Virus record (IMG/VR): IMGVR_UViG_3300021068_000032
Coordinates: 1 to 23,626 of that record
Direction: 5' to 3' (one strand)
DNA: 23,626 nt
Origin: a virus
Shown: in pieces, positions 12,033 through 23,626 of the stretch
Layout of the letters: every line of letters starts with the position of its first letter
How positions within the stretch are numbered: position 1 is the stretch's first letter
Notes under the pieces: model-generated
Told to the model about the DNA's origin: nothing
The model's input: only the letters and a program-made list of their open reading frames with translations
The model's database searches: none
Program-made: the position numbers and the translations under genes

Positions 12033-12040
12033 TATTTATA
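12033..12040 (-). promoter_or_regulatory. Candidate late promoter very close to a start codon
   Basis: A perfect TATAAATA lies in the 22-base gap before the ATG at 12024. With the usual T4 late geometry, transcription would start within a few bases of the ATG, giving a nearly leaderless message. Confidence 0.5.
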
Positions 12041-13004: not shown

Positions 13005-13144
13005 TACATACTGTCCATTATTGCCTTGACAAAACTAGCATTTGCTTTTTTAGTTTCATCACATATTGTTCCTGCTGTACTGACCGTTTCATTACATAAT
13101 TCTTTTGAAACTTCAATACACCATCTTTTTAATTGTTCTATCAT
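13004..13144 (-). CDS. 46-residue hypothetical protein between fibre genes
   Basis: An ATG at 13144 opens a 46-codon frame beginning MIEQLKRWCIEVSKELCNET and ending AIMDSM. Its start overlaps the stop of the 570-residue fibre by one base, and its stop overlaps the start of the 75-residue gene by one base. These two TAATG junctions exactly fill what would otherwise be a 139-base gap, which strongly supports translation. The protein should be mostly helical, with cysteines at 9, 17 and 28 and no recognisable family. It could be a fibre chaperone or a small virion peptide; that is conjecture. Confidence 0.75.
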   Translation of the reverse strand: MIEQLKRWCIEVSKELCNETVSTAGTICDETKKANASFVKAIMDSM

Positions 13145-14856
13145 TAGAAAGAACCTCCGTCAATAGTTGTAATTTCAACTTCACCTGTTGTAACTGTAAA
13201 GTTGTCTGAAGTAAATTTAGCAACACCTTTATTTGAATTTGAAGCGTCTTCTCCTTGAATTGTAATAGAGTTATTATCAACAACTGTATTAATACCTTCA
13301 CCTGCTAAGAAATCTAAATTTTCTTCTAAATAAACTCTTCCTGTTGTAGAAGATTCATCTGTTAATGTTATAAATGGATTTGCAAGTTTAGTTGTTTGAA
13401 TTGTTCCTGCCAACATAGCATTAGTAATACCTAATCCTTTAACTCTTAATGCGTCTGTATTAACTTCAATTGAAGCGTTATCCACTTCAACATCCATTTG
13501 GTTTCCATCTTTTGATAAAGCGGCACCAGCAGTTATTTGCCCAGCACCAGAGAATTGTGATACATCTAAATTAGTTGTTCCAAATGTTGGAGCACCTGTA
13601 TGTGTAAATGTATAACCGTTATTCGCATTTAAAGTTCCTGCTTCAACGAATACGAAAGCACCACCTGATAATTCAGCAGGTTGATCTTCTGGAGTTGCTC
13701 TTGTTAGTACCCAAGGATTTGAACCATCTCCTAAAGTTGTTAAAGTATATATACCGTTTTGTGTACGAGTTGTTTGATCTTTAACTAAAATTCTATCATT
13801 TAAATTTGTTGCTGTACTATCTAAAGTTAATGTTCCATTTGAACTTCCTGTTAATGTTGCACCAACACCAAGACTTCCATTATTATAAGTTGCTGATAAG
13901 TTAGCAGTTGTTCCTAATTTACAAGAAGGTTTAGTATCTAAACCTTGAGCAACTTGGTCAACATACATCTTATTCGCAAGTGAATTATCTGTAAAACCTG
14001 ATCTATCTTCATAACCACTTGGTACTATAACTGTACCTGTTCCGTGTGGTGATAAATTAATATCTTTATTACTTGCTGTTGTTGAAACTGATTGACCATT
14101 TAATGTAAGGTCATCAATTACAATAGAAGTTAATCCTGCTAAATCTGTTTCTGTTTGACCTAAAGTTAATGTAGTTGATCCTAATAGTGTAGTAGGATTT
14201 GCTAAATTAGCATTTGTAATTGCAGCCGTACCAGATAAGTTAGCATTAGTTAATGCTGTAGCAGTTACAGTTACCGTATTATCAGTAACCGTTTGTGTCA
14301 TACCACCTGTACCTGCGAAAGTAAGTGTTTCGGAAGTATTGTAAGTATCTGTTCCTGTATCGCCTGCTAAATTTATGAATTGATTAACAGTTACGAAATC
14401 TAAATTACCAGATCCGTCTGTTTTTAAAAATTGTCCAGCAGTACCATCACCATCTGGTAAAACAAATGTTTCGGATGATGTAACTGCATTAGGTGATCTT
14501 AATCCTATGTAGTTAGTACCGTTATTAGTACCTTCGTTAAATCTTATTTCCCCACCTGCTGTTAGGTGGTTACCGACATTTATTGTGTCTATTGCTAAGT
14601 TAGAGTCGGCTGTAAGTGCTGAACTACCTGTTAAAGTACCAGCGACGTGGTCCAACATATCTGTAAAATACTGACCTCCGATTACTGATACATTATTTGC
14701 GTCACCATTACCGTCAACGCCACCTTCACCAATAAAAATTCTATCACCAAGATTACCTTGTGATCCTGTTCCATAAGTATATGCTAATTCACCTAATTTT
14801 AGTGTTGCTGGTGCTGTAGTTGATGAACTTCTTTTAATCTGTATTACTGTTGCCAT
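13144..14856 (-). CDS. Tail fibre protein, 570 residues
   Basis: The N-terminus MATVIQIKRSSSTTAPATLK leads into LGELAYTYG and a GDRIFIGEGG strand, matching the attachment-type domain of the 126-residue gene. Residues around 120-155 have a TFVLPDGDGTAGQFLKTDGS unit. A low-complexity NANL/TNANL and TTLTLG region follows. Roughly 290-440 form a conserved fibre domain with ANKMYVDQVAQGLDTK, RILVKDQTTRTQNGIYTL and WVLTRATPED. The end is TTIDGGSF, which recalls the FNGGSF end of the 81-residue gene. It is probably a receptor-binding or shaft protein. An AAGGT ribosome binding site supports the start. Confidence 0.85.
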   Translation of the reverse strand: MATVIQIKRSSSTTAPATLKLGELAYTYGTGSQGNLGDRIFIGEGGVDGNGDANNVSVIGGQYFTDMLDHVAGTLTGSSALTADSNLAIDTINVGNHLTAGGEIRFNEGTNNGTNYIGLRSPNAVTSSETFVLPDGDGTAGQFLKTDGSGNLDFVTVNQFINLAGDTGTDTYNTSETLTFAGTGGMTQTVTDNTVTVTATALTNANLSGTAAITNANLANPTTLLGSTTLTLGQTETDLAGLTSIVIDDLTLNGQSVSTTASNKDINLSPHGTGTVIVPSGYEDRSGFTDNSLANKMYVDQVAQGLDTKPSCKLGTTANLSATYNNGSLGVGATLTGSSNGTLTLDSTATNLNDRILVKDQTTRTQNGIYTLTTLGDGSNPWVLTRATPEDQPAELSGGAFVFVEAGTLNANNGYTFTHTGAPTFGTTNLDVSQFSGAGQITAGAALSKDGNQMDVEVDNASIEVNTDALRVKGLGITNAMLAGTIQTTKLANPFITLTDESSTTGRVYLEENLDFLAGEGINTVVDNNSITIQGEDASNSNKGVAKFTSDNFTVTTGEVEITTIDGGSF

Positions 14857-14864
14857 ATTCTACC

Positions 14865-15110
14865 TTAAAAACTTCCGCCGTTAAATGTTAGTGTTCCAGT
14901 AGTGGTAACAATTTCGTTTTTACTTACGAACTTACCATCACTAGCTCTATATTGTAATAATGCACCATCATTTAAGGAAGTTACGTCAACATCACCTAAT
15001 AATTTTAAAGAAAGAGAACTATTTTCTGCTGCTTGTCCTGAAGGTAAAGTTACCGATACCGCCTGTGGTCCACTAGATGTGGGAGCATTGATTTTTGCTG
15101 TAATCGTCAT
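14865..15110 (-). CDS. Small fibre-associated protein
   Basis: This 81-residue protein opens MTITAKINAPTSSGPQAVSV. Its central unit LGDVDVTSLNDGALLQYRAS, continuing DGKFVSKNEI, is a common repeat in phage fibre proteins (D.D.S.L.DG..L.Y....G.W). It ends in NGGSF like the larger fibre that follows. The ATG has a GAGAGG ribosome binding site, and a perfect late octamer lies at 15130-15137. It may represent a single fibre repeat used as an adaptor. No enzymatic feature is visible. Confidence 0.78.
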   Translation of the reverse strand: MTITAKINAPTSSGPQAVSVTLPSGQAAENSSLSLKLLGDVDVTSLNDGALLQYRASDGKFVSKNEIVTTTGTLTFNGGSF

Positions 15111-15129
15111 TGACCTCTCTCTTTAACAA

Positions 15130-15137
15130 TATTTATA
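15130..15137 (-). promoter_or_regulatory. T4-type late promoter before the fibre block
   Basis: A perfect TATAAATA on the minus strand, in the 33-base gap before the ATG at 15110. It could drive the run of genes from 15110 down to about 12047. Confidence 0.7.
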
Positions 15138-15143
15138 ATACTT

Positions 15144-15491
15144 TTAACTTGTTGTTACATTCGGTCTTACAGTAATAATACCTTCAATTACTCTAGTTAC
15201 GGCACCTGTTGATGTCTTTGTAATTTCTACATCATAGACATATCTCTCTGGTGCGTCTAAAGTTGCGGACTGAGCCGCCGTTAAAGTTAATGCTACTACT
15301 CCTGAAGTTGAGTCTGTAGCAATCGTTGATGTGATACTTGTTCTTGTTCTAGTTGACGCATACCCCTTTGCCATCTTGGCTTCCGTTGTATATCCAGTCA
15401 AGTCAAATGCGTTATTATTTGCGTCTTTGACTGTAATATCTGAACTAAAGTTTGCGCCTTGGTCTATAATTAAATTAGCTATTGCTGCCAT
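15144..15491 (-). CDS. BppU N-terminal-like virion protein
   Basis: This 115-residue protein has the pattern IIDQGANFSSDITVKD, then FDLTGYTTEAKMAK, a SGVVALTLTAAQ segment, YVYDVEITKTSTG, and RVIEGIITVRPNVTTS. This order matches the small phage domain seen at the N-terminus of baseplate upper protein BppU and in many stand-alone marine phage virion proteins. It is likely a beta-sandwich that joins fibres or baseplate parts. It overlaps the preceding 73-residue gene by 17 bases, so expression is probably coupled. The family call is moderate in strength; a virion role is more secure. Confidence 0.78.
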   Translation of the reverse strand: MAAIANLIIDQGANFSSDITVKDANNNAFDLTGYTTEAKMAKGYASTRTRTSITSTIATDSTSGVVALTLTAAQSATLDAPERYVYDVEITKTSTGAVTRVIEGIITVRPNVTTS

Positions 15492-15696
15492 TGTCTTTTA
15501 TCGGTTGAACTTTCTCTTTTTCCATCAATTCTTTAATCTTATTATTATAAAATTCTGTAAGAACTGTTATTTTTTCCAACTCAATATTGTGTCTGACTCT
15601 GGATCCTTCAATTTCTTGTCTTGCTGTTATTCTGTTTCTTAATCCAATACTAAACTTCGTTTCGTCATACACTTTTCCATCTATGGTAATTGACAT
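15475..15696 (-). CDS. Small coiled-coil protein, DUF6447-like
   Basis: This 73-residue protein begins MSITIDGKVYDETKFSIGLR and continues as one long charged helix up to KEKVQPIKDNGSNS. The I.IDGK.YD opening followed by a helix resembles the small phage family annotated DUF6447, although I cannot verify this. A strong AGAAGGAG ribosome binding site and a late octamer at 15729-15736 precede it. The helix may form a coiled coil. It shares a transcript with the BppU-like gene, with a 17-base overlap. Confidence 0.7.
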   Translation of the reverse strand: MSITIDGKVYDETKFSIGLRNRITARQEIEGSRVRHNIELEKITVLTEFYNNKIKELMEKEKVQPIKDNGSNS

Positions 15697-15728: not shown

Positions 15729-15736
15729 TATTTATA
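15729..15736 (-). promoter_or_regulatory. T4-type late promoter overlapping the end of the QueC-like gene
   Basis: TATAAATATA on the minus strand lies 32 bases before the ATG at 15696 and overlaps the last codons of the upstream PP-loop gene. It marks where the enzyme island gives way to virion genes. Confidence 0.7.
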
Positions 15737-16421
15737 AGACTTTTTCAACATCTTTATATTTTGGTCTCGTCTTACCAAGTAGTTTAAATGACATAGCAGC
15801 TTCTTCGCAAGAATAACACACATTGCAAGCAGGTGGATCTTTCTTTGAACAAGAATAAGCATATTGCATTAAATGTTCTTTACCAAGTTTATAGAAAATG
15901 TCAATTATTTGAGATTTAAGCATCCTTAAAAAAGGATAGGTAATGTGTGGTTCTTCTGGATAAGACCAAGATAAAGTAATGCCTGTATTAGTAGACTCTA
16001 TATCATATGATAATGGAATCTGGTCAAACCATTGAGTTTTTTCCCAACTGTTATTCCCACCTATATACAATACTATGCTATCAAACTGTTTATAAGCGTG
16101 TCTAGTTATTTCAAAATCAAAGATACCATTCTTTTTTGCCTCATCGCTAACATCATAATTATTATGATAAATTAATTTTCTGTTGTATTCTTTGCTTATA
16201 ATATCAACCATTCTAGCAGCGGGCATTGGATCAGGTGGTTTATTACAGGTCCATATATGTATCGGTGTTTGTCTATCAGTTCTTTTTAATTCTTCTATAA
16301 TAAGACAAAGTAATATACACGAGTCTAAACCGCCTGATAAAAAAAGTCCTATGTTGTCTACCTCTGGTATTGTAAAATCTAATTTATAATTAAAAGGTGT
16401 AGAACCTAATTCAATCAGCAT
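15732..16421 (-). CDS. QueC-like PP-loop ATP pyrophosphatase
   Basis: This 229-residue protein carries the PP-loop signature SGGLDS at residues 29-34 after a hydrophobic strand, as in N-type ATP pyrophosphatases that adenylate a substrate. Near the C-terminus, Cys191, Cys199, Cys202 and Cys205 form C-x7-C-x2-C-x2-C, very like the zinc site of QueC, and a YPFLRMLKSQII segment precedes it as in QueC. QueC makes preQ0 from carboxydeazaguanine. QueC-like enzymes also occur in phage DNA modification and in bacterial immune operons that modify proteins. None of the other preQ0 genes is in this window, so the substrate is unknown. It follows the Asp/Asn-hydroxylase-like gene by six bases and lacks a clear ribosome binding site. 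Confidence 0.82.
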   Translation of the reverse strand: MLIELGSTPFNYKLDFTIPEVDNIGLFLSGGLDSCILLCLIIEELKRTDRQTPIHIWTCNKPPDPMPAARMVDIISKEYNRKLIYHNNYDVSDEAKKNGIFDFEITRHAYKQFDSIVLYIGGNNSWEKTQWFDQIPLSYDIESTNTGITLSWSYPEEPHITYPFLRMLKSQIIDIFYKLGKEHLMQYAYSCSKKDPPACNVCYSCEEAAMSFKLLGKTRPKYKDVEKVL

Positions 16422-16427
16422 AATGAA

Positions 16428-17150
16428 TTACGATATAACTTTATATAACAGTTTTGTTATAGAATCCCAAGTTTTTGGTAAATTGAAAACAACCATATCA
16501 CAATTATGTTTCCACGCTGATAGTTTATGGAGTTTTGCTGTGTTAACATAATATAAACTATTTGGTTGAAATTGCCTAATTCTACCATCAAGTTCCCATT
16601 CTAATTTATCAGAAGCATTACCAATAAATGCAATCAGACGGATTGTATCTCTATGTAAAAGCCAATGGTCTCTATGATGTGGGTAAAAACCGCCAGCATT
16701 TAATTTAATTAAAAAACATCTTCCCCAATCCCCAAAATAATCAAAAATTTCTTTGCAACAAGTTAATTTTTCTTTTGCTTCTGTAGGAAATTTAAATTCA
16801 GATTCATTAGGAATATAACCTAACTTAGCATAAATTTGAGATAGACCAGTTGGTTCCGTAGGTTTATCACCCTTTAGTCCATATAAAAGAATACTCTCTC
16901 TATCATTAAGAATTCCTTTTTTAGGTTGAAAAGGTCTATACCAATGCTCCATATTTTTTTCATCTTCTATAAATTTTTTATAATCAATATCAAATTTTAA
17001 TCTTTCCCAATCTCCAATCATAGATAATTGTAATTCACATTTTAAACTTTCTTCCGAAACTTCTAATTCACATTTTGATTTAAATTTATCAAATGAATAA
17101 TTTAAACCTTTTTCATCTGCAAAATATAAATCTCTATCATCATTTTTCAT
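16428..17150 (-). CDS. Asp/Asn beta-hydroxylase-like 2-oxoglutarate/Fe(II) oxygenase
   Basis: I place the start at the ATG at 17150, giving 240 residues. It forms an ATGA overlap with the preceding stop and has AGAAGGA upstream; an ATG at 17174 would lengthen the overlap without better support. A C-terminal double-stranded beta-helix is indicated by GGFYPHHRDHW, which supplies HxD (His159, Asp161), then RLIAFIGN, LEWELDG and the distal His208 in TAKLHKLSA. The pattern resembles aspartyl/asparaginyl beta-hydroxylases and related marine phage oxygenases. The expected reaction is 2-oxoglutarate-driven hydroxylation. The N-terminal 130 residues are not recognisable. The substrate could be a protein side chain or a small molecule. 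Confidence 0.78.
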   Translation of the reverse strand: MKNDDRDLYFADEKGLNYSFDKFKSKCELEVSEESLKCELQLSMIGDWERLKFDIDYKKFIEDEKNMEHWYRPFQPKKGILNDRESILLYGLKGDKPTEPTGLSQIYAKLGYIPNESEFKFPTEAKEKLTCCKEIFDYFGDWGRCFLIKLNAGGFYPHHRDHWLLHRDTIRLIAFIGNASDKLEWELDGRIRQFQPNSLYYVNTAKLHKLSAWKHNCDMVVFNLPKTWDSITKLLYKVIS

Positions 17151-17854
17151 TTTATAAATCCTTCTATTTTCCATAAATGTCTTTTACCAGATTTTGTTGC
17201 TTCTCTTTTATGATTTGATACCATATTATTAACAAGTACAAAATCTCCTTTTTCCCATTTATGATAATATACTCGTTTAGGGTTATAGATTAAAGGTTCT
17301 ATTTTCTTTTTTTCTTCAATAGGTAATTGTGTATATGCTTCACAATAAAATACATATTCACCTCTTTTATCTTTTTGTATTAAATCGTGTTGTACATTTC
17401 TATGTTTTCTTCTAAACCATCTTCTTTCTGCTTCTGATTTAAACCTATATCCAAATCTACTGTTGCTCGTAAATCTATCCATATCAACTAAAACTTTTTT
17501 ATTATCTATTGGGCATTTAATTCTTGTATCAACATACATTGTACGACCAACCTCACCTTCTACTTCTAAACCATATAAAGCAGTTAGATTTACAGGAGTT
17601 GATGTATAACCTTTATCTATGTGCCATTCTAAATCGGTATTTCCATATAGCTCGTGGTAGTTTTCAGATAATACGACATCTACAAATACTTTGTCCATAG
17701 GATATTGTGGTGAAATATCGTAATGAGTTGTAATAAAATTTAAAATTTTAAGTTGAGATGGAGGTGTATTTTTAATGACAATTAAATCTGTATCATTATC
17801 TAATAAAGGTTTTAAATCTTTATTTTTCCAATCTTGTATCAAGTATTTCATCAT
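17147..17854 (-). CDS. TauD/TfdA-like 2-oxoglutarate/Fe(II) dioxygenase
   Basis: This 235-residue protein has EWHIDKGY, giving His78 and Asp80 of the HxD metal site. The distal His215 lies in SNHKREAT, and Arg225 ten residues later is placed to bind 2-oxoglutarate. A GDFVLVNN strand precedes the distal His, as in TauD. The fold and residues suit an active Fe(II) hydroxylase. The family acts on small molecules such as sulfonates and amino acids, but substrate cannot be inferred. Two ATGs begin the frame (17854 and 17851). The gene overlaps the end of the nitroreductase by about 35 bases, and the next oxygenase follows with an ATGA overlap. Confidence 0.82.
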   Translation of the reverse strand: MMKYLIQDWKNKDLKPLLDNDTDLIVIKNTPPSQLKILNFITTHYDISPQYPMDKVFVDVVLSENYHELYGNTDLEWHIDKGYTSTPVNLTALYGLEVEGEVGRTMYVDTRIKCPIDNKKVLVDMDRFTSNSRFGYRFKSEAERRWFRRKHRNVQHDLIQKDKRGEYVFYCEAYTQLPIEEKKKIEPLIYNPKRVYYHKWEKGDFVLVNNMVSNHKREATKSGKRHLWKIEGFIK

Positions 17855-18563
17855 TTACTTCTACCTTTATTTTTTTATCCAGACTCATATATCTAAAACG
17901 CTCATCATCTGCACCTGTTCTATATTGTTTTGGTATATCTTTATTAAAAAGCTCACCGTGTAATCTTCTATCCATATTTTTATTTTCATAACCAATACCT
18001 ACTATTACTCTAGGATCATCTTTTGTAATTGCCTTTAATTCTGGAATAACAAAAGCAGAACAAAAGCCAGTTTTATAACCTAATAGTGCTGCTACTAAAC
18101 TTAATTGACCAGAAGATATGCCAATTGAAAAATTTTTTAATCTAGTAAAAAGGTTTCTTGTATTTTCACTCGCATTTCCTCTAGCAGCTATTACTTGATC
18201 GCCACCTCTTAAATTATCTTCATCATCACAATAGACAAAAACAACATTAGAAAGTATTTGAGAATTTTTAATTTCATATTTGTTATTGCCAACCACTTCT
18301 TTACCGTTATCTTTATACATCTTGTCAAAAGTTTCTCTAGTAAATAAACCAAATCGTTCAGTACAATCATATATCTTTCGTATCAAATTAGGGTCTGTAT
18401 AAACCTTTAATTTAAAATGTGTTTCATTTTGTTTAGATGGTGAATTGATAGCCGTATAAATGAGTGTATCTAAATCTTCTTGTGGTATTGATTTAGACAA
18501 ATCATAATTGCGTTGTGCTCTTTGTGTAGTATAAACTGCACTCTTTAATATTTTATGATCCAT
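17820..18563 (-). CDS. Nitroreductase-family flavoprotein
   Basis: This 247-residue protein shows the FMN-dependent nitroreductase pattern: QRAQRNYD at 14-21 near the N-terminus, INSPSKQN at 40-46, the helix SIGISSGQLSLVAALLGYKT starting at 146, and the strand VIVGIGY at 186-192. Members reduce nitro compounds, quinones, flavins or enamides using NAD(P)H and FMN, usually as dimers. The start overlaps the stop of the GNAT-like gene by one base (TAATG). A second, more divergent relative is encoded at the far end of the window, so the island has a pair. The substrate is unknown. Confidence 0.85.
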   Translation of the reverse strand: MDHKILKSAVYTTQRAQRNYDLSKSIPQEDLDTLIYTAINSPSKQNETHFKLKVYTDPNLIRKIYDCTERFGLFTRETFDKMYKDNGKEVVGNNKYEIKNSQILSNVVFVYCDDEDNLRGGDQVIAARGNASENTRNLFTRLKNFSIGISSGQLSLVAALLGYKTGFCSAFVIPELKAITKDDPRVIVGIGYENKNMDRRLHGELFNKDIPKQYRTGADDERFRYMSLDKKIKVEVNDEILDTRLEK

Positions 18564-19093
18564 TACTTTCTTTCAAATTTATTTCCTGTGTATCCTATGT
18601 ACTGCAATCCACCTTTTGATTTATTGTAAGTTACATAATGTGGACCATCAAAATGCCATAAGTGTTTAGAATACTTATTATGTCCTTTAATAACTCTTTT
18701 TAAAGTTTTTTCAACTCTTAATTCCATAGAAATAAACATACACTTAAATCCCTTTTCAATACAAAAATCAGTTTGTTGATCTAACATATCTGAAGAAGAT
18801 TTTTTAAAAAGTCCATCATATTCATTAGGTATCAAACCTGTACTACCTTCAATCAAAGCATATCTATCAAACACTCTTACACTATCCTTATAACAAGTAC
18901 GACTTAACATTCTTGCCGTTGCAATAGGATTTCCTTGTTCATTATATCTTACAGTAACACCTACAACTGGTTCTTTTAAATTTTCTGAAAGATAATTATT
19001 TGATCGTTTACCATTTTTCTTTATAACTGTATCATAAATGTAATCAATGTCTTTCTGAACATCTGGTGAAGCCACCTCAAAAGTTTTAATCAT
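18563..19093 (-). CDS. GNAT-like acyltransferase (tentative)
   Basis: This 176-residue protein has an alpha/beta pattern compatible with the GNAT fold. A PVVGVTVRYNEQGNPIATAR strand pair at 42-61 is followed by VRVFDRYAL at 72-80. A helix at 100-115 follows, and there is a CMFISMEL strand. The usual acetyl-CoA pyrophosphate-binding R/Q-x-x-G-x-G/A motif is not obvious, so the call is weak. It could be an N-acyl- or aminoacyl-transferase-like protein. It overlaps the desaturase stop by eight bases and the nitroreductase start by one, which fixes it in the same operon. Confidence 0.55.
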   Translation of the reverse strand: MIKTFEVASPDVQKDIDYIYDTVIKKNGKRSNNYLSENLKEPVVGVTVRYNEQGNPIATARMLSRTCYKDSVRVFDRYALIEGSTGLIPNEYDGLFKKSSSDMLDQQTDFCIEKGFKCMFISMELRVEKTLKRVIKGHNKYSKHLWHFDGPHYVTYNKSKGGLQYIGYTGNKFERK

Positions 19094-19790
19094 ATTTTAT
19101 CATACGAATAAAAAAGTATGTAGGATCAATTGGACCTAATCTTAACTTTTTAGTATCTTCGTGGTGTACTTTATGGTATCCTTCTCCAGCTGTAAACAAA
19201 TTTAACCAATGACTATTCGCTGCCTTTCCATCTTTGTGCAAGTATGCGTTAAACAATCCAAATAAATGTGAACTTAAAACACAAGGTAGACAATAACCAA
19301 ATATTAAAAGTAAAGGGTTAATTAAAAATAATACTGTAACTAATAATAATACTAATTTAAAATAATGTCTATGAAAGAACATTAAAATTTTATTATTTAC
19401 TAATCCTTTAAAAAATCTGCGTTCTATTTTACCATCTAGTCCCCATAAATTAAAATAGATTTTCCAGAATCCGTGATGTACAGGAGAACTAGGGTCTTTA
19501 TCTGTATCTGAATAATGATGATGTTGTCTATGAATTGCCGCTCGTGTTAAGTATGGACCTGACCCGACAAATAAACTTAAAGAGTTTGTAAACCATTCAA
19601 ACCATTTACCTGTTTTAAATGAATTGTGAGCATAATATCTATGATAACCAGAACTTGATGAGGCAATAGTTATGAAGTAATACCATAAAAATCCTGCTAA
19701 CCACATCCATAACTGACCGTAAATTAACCCAGGTATTAATGCTAGGTTACATAAAAGATGGTTGATTAATAATTTGTGTGTAGTTTTCAT
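19086..19790 (-). CDS. Membrane fatty-acid (acyl) desaturase, delta-9 type
   Basis: This 234-residue protein has the three histidine boxes of diiron acyl desaturases: H50RYYAH55, H87RQHH91 and H206KVHH210, the last in GYHKVHH. Hydrophobic stretches near residues 7-45 and 145-180 make a multi-span membrane protein. The reaction expected is O2- and electron-dependent insertion of a double bond into an acyl chain attached to CoA or lipid. It is somewhat shorter than many bacterial delta-9 desaturases, but all boxes are intact. An AAGGTAA site lies upstream. It sits 14 bases after the 92-residue gene, so the late promoter at 20099 could drive it. It would alter membrane fluidity or provide an unsaturated acyl donor; which is unknown. 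Confidence 0.88.
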   Translation of the reverse strand: MKTTHKLLINHLLCNLALIPGLIYGQLWMWLAGFLWYYFITIASSSSGYHRYYAHNSFKTGKWFEWFTNSLSLFVGSGPYLTRAAIHRQHHHYSDTDKDPSSPVHHGFWKIYFNLWGLDGKIERRFFKGLVNNKILMFFHRHYFKLVLLLVTVLFLINPLLLIFGYCLPCVLSSHLFGLFNAYLHKDGKAANSHWLNLFTAGEGYHKVHHEDTKKLRLGPIDPTYFFIRMIKYD

Positions 19791-19804
19791 AATGTAAAAT
19801 TACC

Positions 19805-20083
19805 TTATATTTCTTCTTCATAACACACTATTGATCTTCCCTCACAATGCTGTATTCTTGCGTCTTGGTGACTTTTGCTAGTAGCATTATTTTCTGGTCT
19901 CATTAACTCATAATCTTCATCCGATAAAGTAAATGAAATTGTATTTGTAAGACCATCTTCACTTGTAATTGATGAAAAATTACCACTTTTTGAATTAATA
20001 ATATTTTTTATTTCATCAGGCGCTACATAAAACTCAACGCTAGTGTTTGGTCTTTCTTGTATTAATTTTCTTGTTATTGCCAT
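19805..20083 (-). CDS. 92-residue hypothetical protein behind a late promoter
   Basis: The sequence begins MAITRKLIQERPNTSVEFYV and has an APDEIKNIINSKSG helix, a TNTISFTLSDEDYELM segment and an acidic C-terminus CYEEEI. I do not recognise it. A strong AAAGGAG ribosome binding site and a perfect late octamer 15 bases upstream set it apart from its enzyme neighbours. This start style (MAITRK, MATVI) is common for small virion proteins. It may be a structural protein stranded within the island, or the target of the tailoring enzymes. Both are conjecture. Confidence 0.72.
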   Translation of the reverse strand: MAITRKLIQERPNTSVEFYVAPDEIKNIINSKSGNFSSITSEDGLTNTISFTLSDEDYELMRPENNATSKSHQDARIQHCEGRSIVCYEEEI

Positions 20084-20093
20084 AATATCTCCT

Positions 20094-20630
20094 TTAACTA
20101 TTTATAATGTTATTAATATAATCTACTTCATCTTTAAAGGTAACTTGAAGACTATATCTCCAATCAGGTGTTTGATTAAAACATTTATGAAATACAGTAG
20201 CATCCGTAATAATTGATTGACCATCATTATAACAATGGGTTTCCGTTATTGTTTTTTTATCTTCTTTGTAATATTCTAACCTTGTTTCTTCTTTATAATT
20301 TCTAGGACTTAATAAAGTCATAATTACGGTTCTTCTATATTCTCCTGGTTTTGTATAAGTGTCAATGTGTATGTGCATATCAGTCCAAGGTGGTAATCTC
20401 ATTACAAATATAGCGTCAGGTTCTTTAATTTTTTCTGTAATAATTTCCTTTGCTTTTAAAATAGAATCATCTACTTTTAATCTGCCTGAATAGTCTGTAA
20501 TAAATTGATAAGGTTGATATTGACCAGAATGGTGAGATTCGTGATTTAACCAATCACCTTTTTTAGCACACTCTAACATTTCATCTTTATGTTTATCTGT
20601 AAATTTTATATTTGTAGGAAAAATATACAT
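20094..20630 (-). CDS. HxD...H 2-oxoglutarate/Fe(II)-type oxygenase
   Basis: This 178-residue protein has RLPPWTDMHIHIDTYTKPGE, giving His88-x-Asp90, then RRTVIMTLLSP. The distal His148 lies in TVFHKCFN, and Arg158 is ten residues later in DWRYSLQV. These spacings fit a double-stranded beta-helix oxygenase of the Asp/Asn-hydroxylase or phage 2OG-oxygenase type. All presumed metal ligands are intact. The ATG directly follows the stop of the TauD-like gene without a gap. A late promoter begins immediately after its coding end, at 20099, within the last codons. The substrate is unknown. Confidence 0.75.
   Translation of the reverse strand: MYIFPTNIKFTDKHKDEMLECAKKGDWLNHESHHSGQYQPYQFITDYSGRLKVDDSILKAKEIITEKIKEPDAIFVMRLPPWTDMHIHIDTYTKPGEYRRTVIMTLLSPRNYKEETRLEYYKEDKKTITETHCYNDGQSIITDATVFHKCFNQTPDWRYSLQVTFKDEVDYINNIINS
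20099..20106 (-). promoter_or_regulatory. T4-type late promoter inside the enzyme island
   Basis: TTATAAATAGTT on the minus strand is embedded in the last codons of the oxygenase gene, 15 bases before the ATG at 20083. It could drive the 92-residue gene and, by read-through, the desaturase-to-QueC-like operon. Confidence 0.72.
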
Positions 20631-21341
20631 TTAAAATATTGCTATTCTGTGTAGCAACCTTTCTTTCATATTTTCAAAATAGTTTCTTCTATGAATTGCT
20701 AACCATTGTTCAGAAATTACAACATCACCATCTTCCCAATGATGGTCATATCTATACTTATCTTGTAAGATATGTTTTTTTAAATATTCAAACAACTCTT
20801 TAGGCACACCTTCTATTATCTGATTGAATGGAAAAAACAATCCAGTTGACCCCACTTCATTTGTATAAATTAAATTTTGAACACAATCTTTATTATGATG
20901 TTCCCTAAAAGCAGGTTCAGTTGAATACCTACCTCTTTTATAACCACAAGTAAATTTTACATTAGCACATTCTTCTTTAATATTTTGAGGTAAGTCTTCA
21001 TAAGCTTTCTTATTATTAATCCAACTGGTTACACTTCCTTTACTACCTTTGACAGCATATAACCATATTATAGGAGCTCTTTCTGGTTCACTAGGTCTAT
21101 TTACGTGCCAATCTAGTGTTTCTTTATGCCCAAATAAAGCACCTTCGGTAACATTTAAAATTCCTGGTAACTCTCCTTTAAATTGTTTATGTAATTTTAA
21201 TTCCCGTTCCCCTTTAGGAGTTTTTACTTCACTAATAGAGTTAGCTAATTTTAATTCTTCTTCAGCAGTAACCTTTCCTATTTTACGAACACAAACAAGT
21301 TCTTTAAAAACCATTTCTCTTGTTACATCCATTGATTTCAT
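20631..21341 (-). CDS. TauD-like protein with HxN in place of HxD
   Basis: I prefer the ATG at 21341, which overlaps the glycosyltransferase stop as ATGA and gives 236 residues; an ATG at 21416 would overlap by 79 bases. The TauD pattern is clear: LDWHVNRPSEPERAP, IIWLYAVKGSKGSVTSW, AYEDLP, a DGDVVISEQW strand, distal His217 in LAIHRRN, and Arg228 and Arg232 at plus 11 and plus 15. The Asp of the HxD iron site is replaced by Asn81 (codon AAT). Such a change can weaken iron binding or alter chemistry, as halogenases do with Gly or Ala. The protein could be inactive, repurposed, or a two-His enzyme. Confidence 0.78.
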   Translation of the reverse strand: MKSMDVTREMVFKELVCVRKIGKVTAEEELKLANSISEVKTPKGERELKLHKQFKGELPGILNVTEGALFGHKETLDWHVNRPSEPERAPIIWLYAVKGSKGSVTSWINNKKAYEDLPQNIKEECANVKFTCGYKRGRYSTEPAFREHHNKDCVQNLIYTNEVGSTGLFFPFNQIIEGVPKELFEYLKKHILQDKYRYDHHWEDGDVVISEQWLAIHRRNYFENMKERLLHRIAIF

Positions 21342-21901
21342 TTTGATAAAAAATAAGGCGTCCACCAACCAGTCCAACCTTCCTCCATTATGTGATGTAA
21401 TTGACCAAGTGTACACATACTATAATTTTTATCTGGTCCTTCTGCATTAAATTTTGGACAAACTTTATCATATGTTTTATAATCTATTTCTTTGTAATAA
21501 AACTCATCACTACCTTTATAATATTTCTTTAAGTATTCTTTGTCATTTGACTTAAACTTTTTCCATATATGAGATACATCTCCAGTCCAAGATACAACGG
21601 AAGAGTTTAATGGTGTATGCGCTGGTTCTCTCCACCAAGTATCATCTAACAATGTAAAATCTTTTCTAATTAAGTTTGGAAGTTTGTTATATATTATTAC
21701 ATCTAAATCAAAGTATAAGTTTTGTCCATCTCTATAAATGTCATACATTTGAAATTTGTTATACCAGTTGCCATATAAATCGGATGATACAACAACAAAC
21801 TCATCATACTTTAGACCTGAATAAGTGTCTATCATATGTTTCAAATTTTTAATGTGCCAATTAGTAAACTTCTCACCAAACTTACAACAAATGATTCGCA
21901 T
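21338..21901 (-). CDS. Small GT-A-like glycosyltransferase
   Basis: I choose the ATG at 21901, giving 187 residues beginning MRIICCKFGEKFTNWHIKNL, the usual opening of this marine phage family; ATGs at 21916 and 21925 lie deeper inside the upstream gene. An NLYFDLDVIIYNKL segment supplies the DxD motif (Asp65, Asp67) used for metal and nucleotide-sugar binding. LNSSVVSW and GSDEFYY follow, in the order seen in GT8/GT32-like enzymes. It probably transfers a sugar to a glycan, protein or DNA. It overlaps the radical SAM gene by 20 bases and the TauD-like gene by four. Confidence 0.75.
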   Translation of the reverse strand: MRIICCKFGEKFTNWHIKNLKHMIDTYSGLKYDEFVVVSSDLYGNWYNKFQMYDIYRDGQNLYFDLDVIIYNKLPNLIRKDFTLLDDTWWREPAHTPLNSSVVSWTGDVSHIWKKFKSNDKEYLKKYYKGSDEFYYKEIDYKTYDKVCPKFNAEGPDKNYSMCTLGQLHHIMEEGWTGWWTPYFLSK

Positions 21902-22913
21902 AAAGCTTTCTTTCATTTTTAACATTTCTTTCCAAATCTACACTACAATATCTTTTACAGACAGGTGGAATATCTTTGTCTGGACTATTCTCTAACAATT
22001 TCATAAAATCTTTCCACTCATCTTTATTTAAAATTTCTTCAATAGATTTATTGTTATCTATATGCAACTTATCTTTAAAAAGATTTTTCAGTTGTTTATC
22101 TTCCCAAGCAGTATTTACCCAACAACAAGGAAGTATGTGACCAGTAACCGAATAAGATAAATCTCTATTAGTTAAAAGACATTTTGGTTTTAATGTATTT
22201 CTGGAACCCTTTTTCTTTTCAAGTCTATCTTCAACTTTTTTAGTCCAATCTTTATCTTCAAAATTAATAGAGGCATATGATCCAACACCTCCATCAGTTT
22301 CACTATAACTTTTGATCCAACCTTCAATATCTAAATCCATATTACTGATTTCTTTTGATACAGGTCTTTTTGACAATATCAACATAAATTTTAATTTGTG
22401 TTGTTTAGCAATCTTCTTTGCTTCTTCAATATCATCTTTATTATAATCAAATACAATATACTGCCATTCAGGTTTTGAACCTAGATATTTGTTTAATAAC
22501 ATCATATCAAATAGAAATTCACCATCTTGGTTAACTCTATACTTATGACTATCTTTTGGAAGTCCATCTATACCAAAAATCCAATTAGCATTTATATTTG
22601 CTAGAAATGCCTCTTGGTACCACTTTTCAGGTTTATGTGAAGCGGCAGTATGTACTTCCGTAAATATATTCTCATCTCTACATATTTTTAATATCTCAAT
22701 GAAGTGTACATTAAAAATAGGATCAGAAAATGTTCCACAAAATGAAACTCTTTTAAAATATTTTATTATTTTTTTAAATTGTTCTGGTGTTAAATCTTTA
22801 CCAGGTATTCTTTTATTATTTTTTCTAAAATTAGTTCTTGCACAAGCAGAGCATTGTAAAGTACATTTTGGACCTGCGTCTATATTCAAAGTTCTTTCAT
22901 TGAACGGAATCAT
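21882..22913 (-). CDS. Radical SAM protein with C-terminal SPASM-like cysteines
   Basis: This 343-residue protein has the radical SAM motif C17-x3-C21-x2-C24 (KCTLQCSAC), which binds the [4Fe-4S] cluster that cleaves S-adenosylmethionine. A FCGTFSDPIF strand at about 58-67 fits the GGE-like SAM-binding position of this subgroup. Further cysteines at 245, 263, 264, 319 and 323 (GHILPCCW and PPVCKRYC) resemble a SPASM or Twitch auxiliary cluster, which is typical of peptide- or protein-modifying members. The glycosyltransferase overlaps it, and the nitroreductase-like gene ends six bases upstream. Similar radical SAM genes occur near glycosyltransferases in marine T4-like phages. The substrate is unknown. 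Confidence 0.85.
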   Translation of the reverse strand: MIPFNERTLNIDAGPKCTLQCSACARTNFRKNNKRIPGKDLTPEQFKKIIKYFKRVSFCGTFSDPIFNVHFIEILKICRDENIFTEVHTAASHKPEKWYQEAFLANINANWIFGIDGLPKDSHKYRVNQDGEFLFDMMLLNKYLGSKPEWQYIVFDYNKDDIEEAKKIAKQHKLKFMLILSKRPVSKEISNMDLDIEGWIKSYSETDGGVGSYASINFEDKDWTKKVEDRLEKKKGSRNTLKPKCLLTNRDLSYSVTGHILPCCWVNTAWEDKQLKNLFKDKLHIDNNKSIEEILNKDEWKDFMKLLENSPDKDIPPVCKRYCSVDLERNVKNERKLYANHLL

Positions 22914-22919
22914 AATTCA

Positions 22920-23626
22920 TTATTTAATTTCTATAGCTTTAATATCTCTTTTTCTCATAGTATTAATTTTAATATCTGCTCTGTCTGGTATTTTGTGCCA
23001 AACACCATATGGGTCTTGCGCTTTATCTGTTGTTTTAATATCTACGATTTTAATTTTTCTAAACTTTTTTCCTGTTCTAGGATGTTTATCTAGTTTAAAT
23101 GAATCTAAACTTAAATTACTACCATTAGCAGCACCTATAGCCAATAATGTTTGGTCTGATTCATAACGCTCAACTCCTTTTTTAGGAAATCCAATACCAA
23201 TACCATATGCTATTTGTTTCTCACCTTTATTTACTTCATCTAATATGCCTAATTTCTTTTCCCAAAAATCATCACCGTTCATATCATTATGACTTTTGTT
23301 GCCACCAGTAGCAAAACCTAATTTAGACGCCGCTCTCATAACTAAACCAATTGCTATACCTATACTTACATAAGCATTCTCCCAACGAGCAGCTGTAGCA
23401 TTGCCTTTTAAAGTTCCATCAGCATTACAATTTAATTGTGTATCTGGTTCTTTTGCCACAAATAACATATACATATTAGCATTTTGTTGTGAATTTTTCC
23501 AAGTTGATGGTGGGTTACGACTATGTGTTGTTCCCCAAGTATAATTTGATAACTCCTCTAATACTTTTCTATCAGCAGTCCAATAGACATCATAATAAGC
23601 TTCATATTGTTTTGAAGGAGCATTTT
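22920..23626 (-). CDS. Second nitroreductase-like protein, 5' end cut by window
   Basis: The frame stays open beyond the ATG at 23474 to the window edge, adding 50 residues. They include NAPSKQYEAYYDVYW and WGTTHSRNPPSTW. The APSKQ motif parallels SPSKQN of the other nitroreductase, so the true start lies outside the window. Downstream come ANMYMLFVAKEP, the helix VSIGIAIGLVMRAASKLGFA and the strand AYGIGIGFP, all in nitroreductase order. Residues beyond about 180 are a basic tail without recognised motif. At least 234 residues are present. An FMN oxidoreductase role is likely, but divergence from the first copy means another reaction is possible. Confidence 0.75.
   Translation of the reverse strand, partial: NAPSKQYEAYYDVYWTADRKVLEELSNYTWGTTHSRNPPSTWKNSQQNANMYMLFVAKEPDTQLNCNADGTLKGNATAARWENAYVSIGIAIGLVMRAASKLGFATGGNKSHNDMNGDDFWEKKLGILDEVNKGEKQIAYGIGIGFPKKGVERYESDQTLLAIGAANGSNLSLDSFKLDKHPRTGKKFRKIKIVDIKTTDKAQDPYGVWHKIPDRADIKINTMRKRDIKAIEIK

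Follow-up and report, generated by a model that had tools for sequence, protein, structure and literature searches.

What might a marine phage do with a dozen densely packed tailoring-type enzyme genes beside its fibre genes? The question is raised by IMG/VR virus record IMGVR_UViG_3300021068_000032, a 23,626-base fragment of a pelagimyophage (a phage of SAR11, the commonest bacteria in the ocean), the whole of which is referred to here as the window. Twelve open reading frames (ORFs) occupy positions 15732-23624 of its minus strand; most of them abut a neighbour or overlap it by 1-80 bases, and nearly all encode enzymes. A previous inspection without database searches (the sequence-only reading) had described a dense island of about twelve overlapping tailoring genes next to fibre genes, and all twelve are present, their functions backed by profile, motif or fold. 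The island appears to combine two biosynthetic blocks, mosaic fashion, within a hypervariable host recognition cluster (HRC). Its best explanation, which we hold tentatively and with less than even confidence, is late remodelling of the host envelope.

The HRC is a large, hypervariable pelagimyophage island extending from VrlC to the neck gene gp14 and containing fibres, glycosyltransferases and radical SAM cassettes, as set out in the sections of Zaragoza-Solas et al. 2020 (PMC7029224) on which we draw. The window holds a gp14-side gene (150-971; PHROG head-tail adaptor) and fibre genes, consistent with a pelagimyophage; it is incomplete, with the VrlC side lying past the contig end. On its fibre side the island has a conserved boundary (13144-15696, minus strand) with PHROG tail matches and with orthologues in most loci retrieved through a fibre gene and in Pelagibacter phage Mosig EXVC030M (MT647606), the closest isolate match of the island and the sole phage record matching it at the DNA level. 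This boundary comprises S73 (15475-15696), which starts the fibre gene block, FIBA (15144-15491), F81 (14865-15110) and the fibre protein F570 (13144-14856), all on the minus strand. The island shares with the published cluster its location (fibre genes, gp14-side neighbours and, in relatives, the VrlC side), its glycosyltransferases and radical SAM cassettes, and its hypervariability, with fibre-anchored relatives carrying differing cassettes at this site alongside fibre genes. It therefore probably belongs to that cluster, and as an island is not undescribed. The sections of PMC7029224 used here name no nitroreductases, do not discuss the enzyme cassette described below, and mention neither its unusual TauD clade nor its bacterial copies.

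Gene maps of relatives set the three genes NTR1, RSAM and GTX (block A) apart from the remaining nine. NTR1 (22920-23624, minus strand), the first of the three, encodes a nitroreductase-fold protein whose N terminus is lost at the contig end; the fragment is 79% identical to the orthologue in locus L024 and has no Pfam match, and its full-length Mosig orthologue, Mosig_00093, matches Pfam Nitroreductase (E 0.005). RSAM (21882-22913, minus strand) is a radical SAM/SPASM-like enzyme (Pfam Radical_SAM E 6e-6, SPASM E 0.003) with intact iron-sulfur sites, its CxxxCxxC motif and five downstream C-terminal Cys residues being invariant across eight relatives. GTX (21338-21925, minus strand) is glycosyltransferase-like, with a YFDLD motif and a match to PHROG 1962 (glycosyltransferase; E 2e-5). 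NTR1 is followed directly by a glycosyltransferase-type GTX orthologue in 26 of the 49 loci with context, and by a radical SAM gene in 5 more. In L003, L004 and Mosig, block A extends into genes for a DegT aminotransferase, a radical SAM protein, a carbamoyltransferase, a nitroreductase-like protein, a methyltransferase and several glycosyltransferase-like proteins and ends on the VrlC side; in L003 and Mosig the NTR1-GTX block terminates beside VrlC. Judged by family membership, NTR1-RSAM-GTX would thus be the end of a VrlC-side glycan-type cluster. A search of 84,980 species genomes with an NTR1 profile gave no confirmed relative, and hence no cellular context for block A from this gene. Separately, we observed that several phages, Mosig among them, have the radical SAM gene divided between two ORFs, one for the core and one for a cysteine-rich C-terminal part (L012, 27889-28855; L004, 10001-10920; also L061 and L058).

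Block B, TAUD1-AAH1-S92-DES-GNAT-NTR2-TAUD2-AAH2-QUEC, is a fibre-side cassette with a core of Asp/Asn-hydroxylase-family oxygenases (AAH), the 92-residue protein S92, a desaturase (DES), a GNAT-fold acyltransferase and TauD-type oxygenases. To give island content no part in the choice of loci, we fetched relatives by the fibre gene F570, taking the best 80 of 369, which biases the set towards similar fibres; IMG/VR contigs may also be redundant or fragmentary. Each of the 17 non-redundant fibre-anchored loci that extend at least 5 kb upstream has one or more AAH genes in the 5 kb before the fibre block. TAUD, DES, GNAT and S92 co-occur across the 16 such loci other than the window (pair sum 36 against 19.5 expected; P about 1e-5 in a permutation test that takes loci as independent, which is not fully so). 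Among 50 non-redundant GNAT-centred loci with at least 9 kb of context, 47 carry AAH, 43 DES and 29 a TauD-type gene with Asn at an iron-ligand position (TAUD-HxN); radical SAM genes are found in 26, the Asp form (TAUD-HxD) in 21 and nitroreductases in 12. At least four of the families GNAT, DES, AAH, TAUD-HxN and TAUD-HxD occur together in 34 of the 50. GNAT was never used as bait; part of this set was retrieved with DES and TAUD, whose own shares are therefore inflated.

Gene order is recurrent too. The arrangement AAH-S92-DES-GNAT-TAUD, which is the window order minus NTR2, recurs in L260, L259, L107 and L145, and S92-DES, DES-(AAH-)GNAT and GNAT-TAUD are recurrent adjacencies. Of the matches to these families in Mosig, 10 fall in the island, against 2 across the remaining ~100 kb of the phage. 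The expectation that the genes keep company and order in viral genomes is borne out for this core, fails for QUEC, with 5 matches in 338 loci including the window, and nearly fails for NTR2, which is uncommon. With block A belonging to a separate cluster, the twelve genes do not form one set.

The nine genes of block B, all on the minus strand, belong to the families that had been named from sequence, to which S92 is an addition. TAUD1 (20631-21416; Pfam TauD E 5e-21) is a TauD-type Fe/2-oxoglutarate (2OG) enzyme; judging from the starts of its homologues, its true start is probably ATG 21338, overlapping the GTX stop, rather than GTG 21416. AAH1 (20094-20630) is an Asp/Asn-hydroxylase-family 2OG oxygenase whose match to Pfam Asp_Arg_Hydrox (E 3e-4) falls slightly below the curated cut-off; its aligned site has HxD...H and an Arg 10 residues past the distal His. 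AAH2 (16428-17174), a second such 2OG oxygenase, reaches no Pfam model; it has an invariant HxD...H and distantly matches a β-hydroxylase in the Protein Data Bank (PDB; 7V4O, E 2e-5). Across the AAH family, the HxD...H iron site is kept in 61 of 62 aligned sequences. TAUD2 (17147-17854; Pfam TauD E 5e-17) is a TauD-type oxygenase with an intact canonical HxD...H site, formed by a WHID motif and the distal His. GNAT (18563-19093) was assigned by AlphaFold2 and Foldseek (predicted local distance difference test score (pLDDT) 89), its top PDB matches being GNAT acetyltransferases (E 6e-6, template modelling score about 0.6). NTR2 (17820-18563; Pfam Nitroreductase E 3e-7) is a nitroreductase that aligns in a subfamily distinct from that of NTR1.

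DES (19086-19790; Pfam FA_desaturase E 8e-12) is a short membrane di-iron enzyme of the stearoyl-CoA desaturase type, with hydrophobic stretches. It resembles SCD1 (PDB 4YMK/4ZYO, E 4e-21) in having nine His and one Asn at the di-iron ligand positions, with three His boxes, and these positions (the Asn within NxxxH) are invariant in 13 sequences, so that the di-iron site is intact; it differs in length, at 234 residues against about 320-340 in SCD1. QUEC (15732-16421; Pfam QueC E 1e-6) is a QueC-like PP-loop ATPase with an SGGLDS motif and four C-terminal Cys residues; with the full-length NCBIfam QueC model, whose cut-off is 150 bits, it reaches 25, a test that suggests a PP-loop relative and not QueC itself (7-cyano-7-deazaguanine synthase). 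We also considered 7-deazaguanine DNA modification, which looks unlikely: QUEC is rare, and none of QueD, QueE, FolE or a DNA transglycosylase was recognised among the window proteins scanned, the window being a fragment with some ORFs unscanned. The ratio of nonsynonymous to synonymous substitution rates against relatives is 0.12-0.48 (simple Nei-Gojobori estimates) for the 11 island genes compared, all but S92, which are thus under purifying selection. Among 50,697 isolated-phage records, DES matches Mosig only and RSAM matches Mosig and Campylobacter phages; NTR2, TAUD1 and one relative of S92 used as a query have no match there.

The most unusual active site is that of TAUD1. Its profile match, distal His and Arg are common to Fe/2OG oxygenases of the TauD/ScoE/2,4-D type, but the iron-ligand Asp/Glu of these enzymes is replaced by Asn. 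The His-Val-Asn codons lie at 21099-21107 (minus strand; residues 104-106 of the 261-residue ORF), and the Asn is invariant in 15 aligned relatives. Although homologous to TauD, TAUD1 therefore reads HxN...H where the 2-His-1-carboxylate pattern has HxD/E...H, and hydroxylase activity should not be assumed for it. Across all loci, 142 unique TauD relatives have the ligand set HNH in 96 cases and HDH in 42; the 96, TAUD1 and 95 others, form one large, virus-rich clade. In a tree of 62 representatives the HxN and HxD forms are parted by a single change (branch support 89, quick tree). Simple decay does not account for the HxN form, because the distal His and Arg are conserved while its members diverge widely. 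Halogenases of the Fe/2OG superfamily carry Gly or Ala at the carboxylate ligand position. The Asn of the TAUD1 clade differs from these, and we do not claim halogenation. The TAUD profiles weakly resemble ScoE, an isonitrile-forming enzyme (NCBIfam E about 0.005, PDB E 1e-12). A search of the open-access literature for an HxN motif in TauD-type enzymes returned no relevant precedent, which is no proof of absence.

S92 (19805-20083, minus strand) is predicted with confidence to adopt a ferredoxin-like α/β fold (AlphaFold2, pLDDT 93), and Foldseek finds good matches only to four uncharacterised phage proteins (E ≤ 3e-4). Assignment as an ABM-type enzyme was rejected, the PDB matches being weak (E > 0.007), as was a role as precursor of a ribosomally synthesized and post-translationally modified peptide, for which a short, unstructured chain would be expected in place of a well-folded one of 92 residues. 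A weak kinship to a small protein of bacterial genome G078 (C34:153237-153635; E 4.5e-6 among 190 proteins, best domain 3e-4) is not relied on. S92 is preceded by a late-type promoter motif. TATAAATA, the T4 late promoter consensus, occurs nine times in the window, always on the coding strand; this count is not significant by itself (5.7 expected), so the argument rests on position across relatives. One copy lies upstream of S92 (20099-20106, minus strand) and another upstream of S73 (15729-15736, minus strand), with further copies at 15130-15137 and 12033-12040. In 160 fibre-bearing loci, the 70 bases upstream of the gene contain TATAAATA in 90% of cases for S73 (69/77), 99% for F81 and 70% for S92 (32/46), and in 0% for DES, GNAT, TAUD and glycosyltransferase genes; the spacing of the motif before S73, F81 and S92 is fixed in pelagimyophages. 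Promoter detection derived from cyanomyophages was found unsatisfactory in pelagimyophages, according to the part of PMC7029224 drawn on here. The motif suggests that S92 acts as a late gene in its own right and that DES-GNAT-NTR2-TAUD2-AAH2-QUEC may be transcribed late from its promoter.

The cassette is not confined to phages. Three genomes of Bdellovibrionota, predator-type bacteria (G001, G078 and G206, the latter two placed in the order and phylum of the first), carry the gene set on contigs where it is unaccompanied by fibre or capsid genes and stands amid housekeeping genes whose names are our reading of the sequences, not database calls. These contigs were found with the TAUD1 profile, to which few genome contigs matched; TauD relatives of this kind occur in 2 of 129 genomes of the same order and 4 of 369 of the phylum. 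In G001, a Bacteriovoracaceae metagenome-assembled genome (MAG), the genes of locus L332 run in the same order as in the Mosig cassette, namely GNAT, a methyltransferase, an AAH-type gene, a flavin mononucleotide (FMN) reductase, TAUD-HxN and AAH, and are surrounded by a second TAUD, more AAH and radical SAM genes and two DES with an aminotransferase homologue; an acyl carrier protein gene lies near the cluster (PF00550, E 8e-14), and the contig also bears aroC- and aroA-like genes. In G078, a chromosomal island of ~49 kb (C34:146107-195325) between tuf and the secE-nusG-rplK-rpoB genes (secE-rpoBC operon) is dense in radical SAM genes and carries AAHs, three TAUD-HxN, two DES and two GNAT as well as genes for an aminotransferase homologue, a PP-loop protein and a sugar-dehydrogenase-like protein. 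A radical SAM protein encoded there shares 66% identity with one from a viral contig, and inspection, in place of a full phage-gene scan, recognised no phage structural genes in it. G206 has a 10-kb cluster, AAH-GNAT-DES...RSAM-TAUD(HxN)-AAH-TAUD(HxN), with trpS- and nrd-like genes on its flanks. Misbinning is a risk with MAG contigs, but those of G001 and G078 carry housekeeping-type genes themselves. We set aside L329 and L333, which resemble phage contigs in bacterial bins, and G239, whose TauD relatives, on a 7.5-kb contig, read WHRD and WHSA. The fibre-free copies show that the set does not depend on fibres and has passed between phages and bacteria, in one direction or the other, and thus that the module is a transferable biosynthetic pathway. 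The proposal of a biosynthetic or modification pathway accordingly holds for AAH, S92, DES, GNAT and TauD, on the strength of co-occurrence, order, concentration in the island, purifying selection and the bacterial copies; the fibre as sole target is made unlikely by the last of these.

How might these enzymes act together? The presence of an SCD-type membrane desaturase with a full ligand set points to a substrate that is acyl or membrane-bound, and the neighbouring glycan-type block to a product in the envelope; from this we infer a substrate, an order of steps, a target and a benefit. Late in infection, transcription from the promoter before S92, together with read-through, would express the genes. 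An acyl- or aminoacyl-type precursor would be desaturated and hydroxylated by the membrane-bound desaturase and the soluble 2OG enzymes and acylated by GNAT, and the glycosyltransferases and radical SAM enzyme of block A would build or attach a sugar. The infected cell would thereby gain a decorated glycoconjugate or lipid in its envelope, and its altered surface might, for example, block re-adsorption of progeny or competing phages. Surface alteration against coinfection is also what the authors of the HRC study propose, in the part of PMC7029224 considered here.

Several observations weigh against envelope remodelling. GNAT resembles ordinary acetyltransferases, not those of the LuxI or OlsB type, so that an acyl-lipid route is not specifically supported; an ornithine-lipid or N-acyl amino acid route of the OlsB/OlsC/OlsE kind was rejected, with no OlsB- or LuxI-like structure in the top 50 Foldseek matches of GNAT. 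The scheme gives QUEC and NTR2 no step, the acyl carrier protein gene of G001 may be unrelated to its cluster, and the bacterial copies have other companion genes; the product may vary between islands, and the envelope product and its substrate are themselves inferred. Late transcription with the fibre genes would also fit modification of the virion, in which S92 or proteins of the fibre or baseplate would be hydroxylated, glycosylated or acylated by these enzymes at assembly, with a change in host range or stability. The island lies directly upstream of the fibre genes on the same strand, with AAH genes near the fibre block in every fibre-anchored locus; the promoter before S92 resembles those of S73 and F81; and AAH families can act on proteins. 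Yet the set occurs in bacteria among housekeeping genes, which argues against a fibre-only system, no pelagimyophage fibre core genes are seen in the available stretch of 42 viral loci having four or more of the five families, and an integral-membrane desaturase would be an odd protein-modifying enzyme. We regard this explanation as unlikely.

That the product is instead a diffusible small molecule, a modified amino acid or acyl amino acid freed at lysis as a signal, toxin, metallophore or osmolyte, seems to us distinctly unlikely. The aminotransferases, methyltransferase, GNAT, FMN reductase, TauD and radical SAM proteins of relatives do resemble a natural-product gene cluster, and the weak similarity of the TAUD profiles to ScoE points the same way, although such similarity is common to many TauD enzymes; the window contains no nonribosomal peptide synthetase, polyketide synthase, ligase or exporter, and the neighbouring glycosyltransferase block would be left unexplained. 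The least probable account is that the host recognition cluster is a hotspot gathering unrelated cargo, its neighbours having no joint function. Order and content vary widely, orientation flips, other phages hold a different cassette at the same site, and QUEC and NTR2 are rare; against this, co-occurrence of the core is non-random, its adjacencies recur, and the same set has been placed independently in bacteria. Late envelope remodelling remains our preferred, tentative explanation.

The closest parallels are the published HRC itself and the interchangeable radical SAM module of Campylobacter phages CP220 and CPt10 (PMC2853527). These T4-related phages likewise have an exchangeable block near baseplate and tail genes, in which five radical SAM genes accompany proteins with a nucleotide-sugar-transferase fold. 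They differ in that the stretch examined has an amidinotransferase and no annotated TauD, AAH or desaturase, and their radical SAM proteins are ~27% identical to RSAM over half of its length. The Mosig island shares the site, orthologues of NTR1, GTX and the fibre block, and DES, TAUD-HxN, GNAT and AAH. It differs in having the NTR1 block on the opposite strand, its split radical SAM gene away from NTR1-GTX, and FMN reductase, peroxiredoxin, methyltransferase and aminotransferase genes in place of NTR2, TAUD2 and QUEC; it has no recognised S92.

Two further observations concern other cassettes. In L024, L042, L052 and L084, the position upstream of the fibre genes is taken by a TctA tricarboxylate transporter gene (PF01970, E 3e-65) with a putative periplasmic binding protein and an ATP-grasp-like gene (assigned by eye, no Pfam match). 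Elsewhere in the window, a ferredoxin-dependent bilin reductase (PF05996, E 6e-15; 1005-1685) and a heme oxygenase (PF01126, E 5e-24; 1685-2338), both on the minus strand, constitute a bilin pathway in a phage whose host does not photosynthesize; Mosig has bilin genes too, beside a putative ferrochelatase. Marine viral bilin reductases have been reported previously.

A bolder possibility, which we consider doubtful, is that marine T4-like phages and Bdellovibrionota exchange an undescribed pathway centred on the HxN TauD-derived clade, the short SCD-type desaturase, AAH, GNAT and radical SAM enzymes, and that the HxN enzymes do something other than standard hydroxylation, such as halogenation or desaturation, or have a role that is not oxidative. 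The HxN TauD proteins make up a large and conserved clade that appears to depart from the Fe/2OG canon, and their activity can be tested directly. Few viruses are as abundant as SAR11 phages, whose fibre-side islands have so far been filed as auxiliary or lipopolysaccharide genes with no pathway; a recurrent gene set that also stands amid bacterial housekeeping genes opens the way to finding its product in culture.

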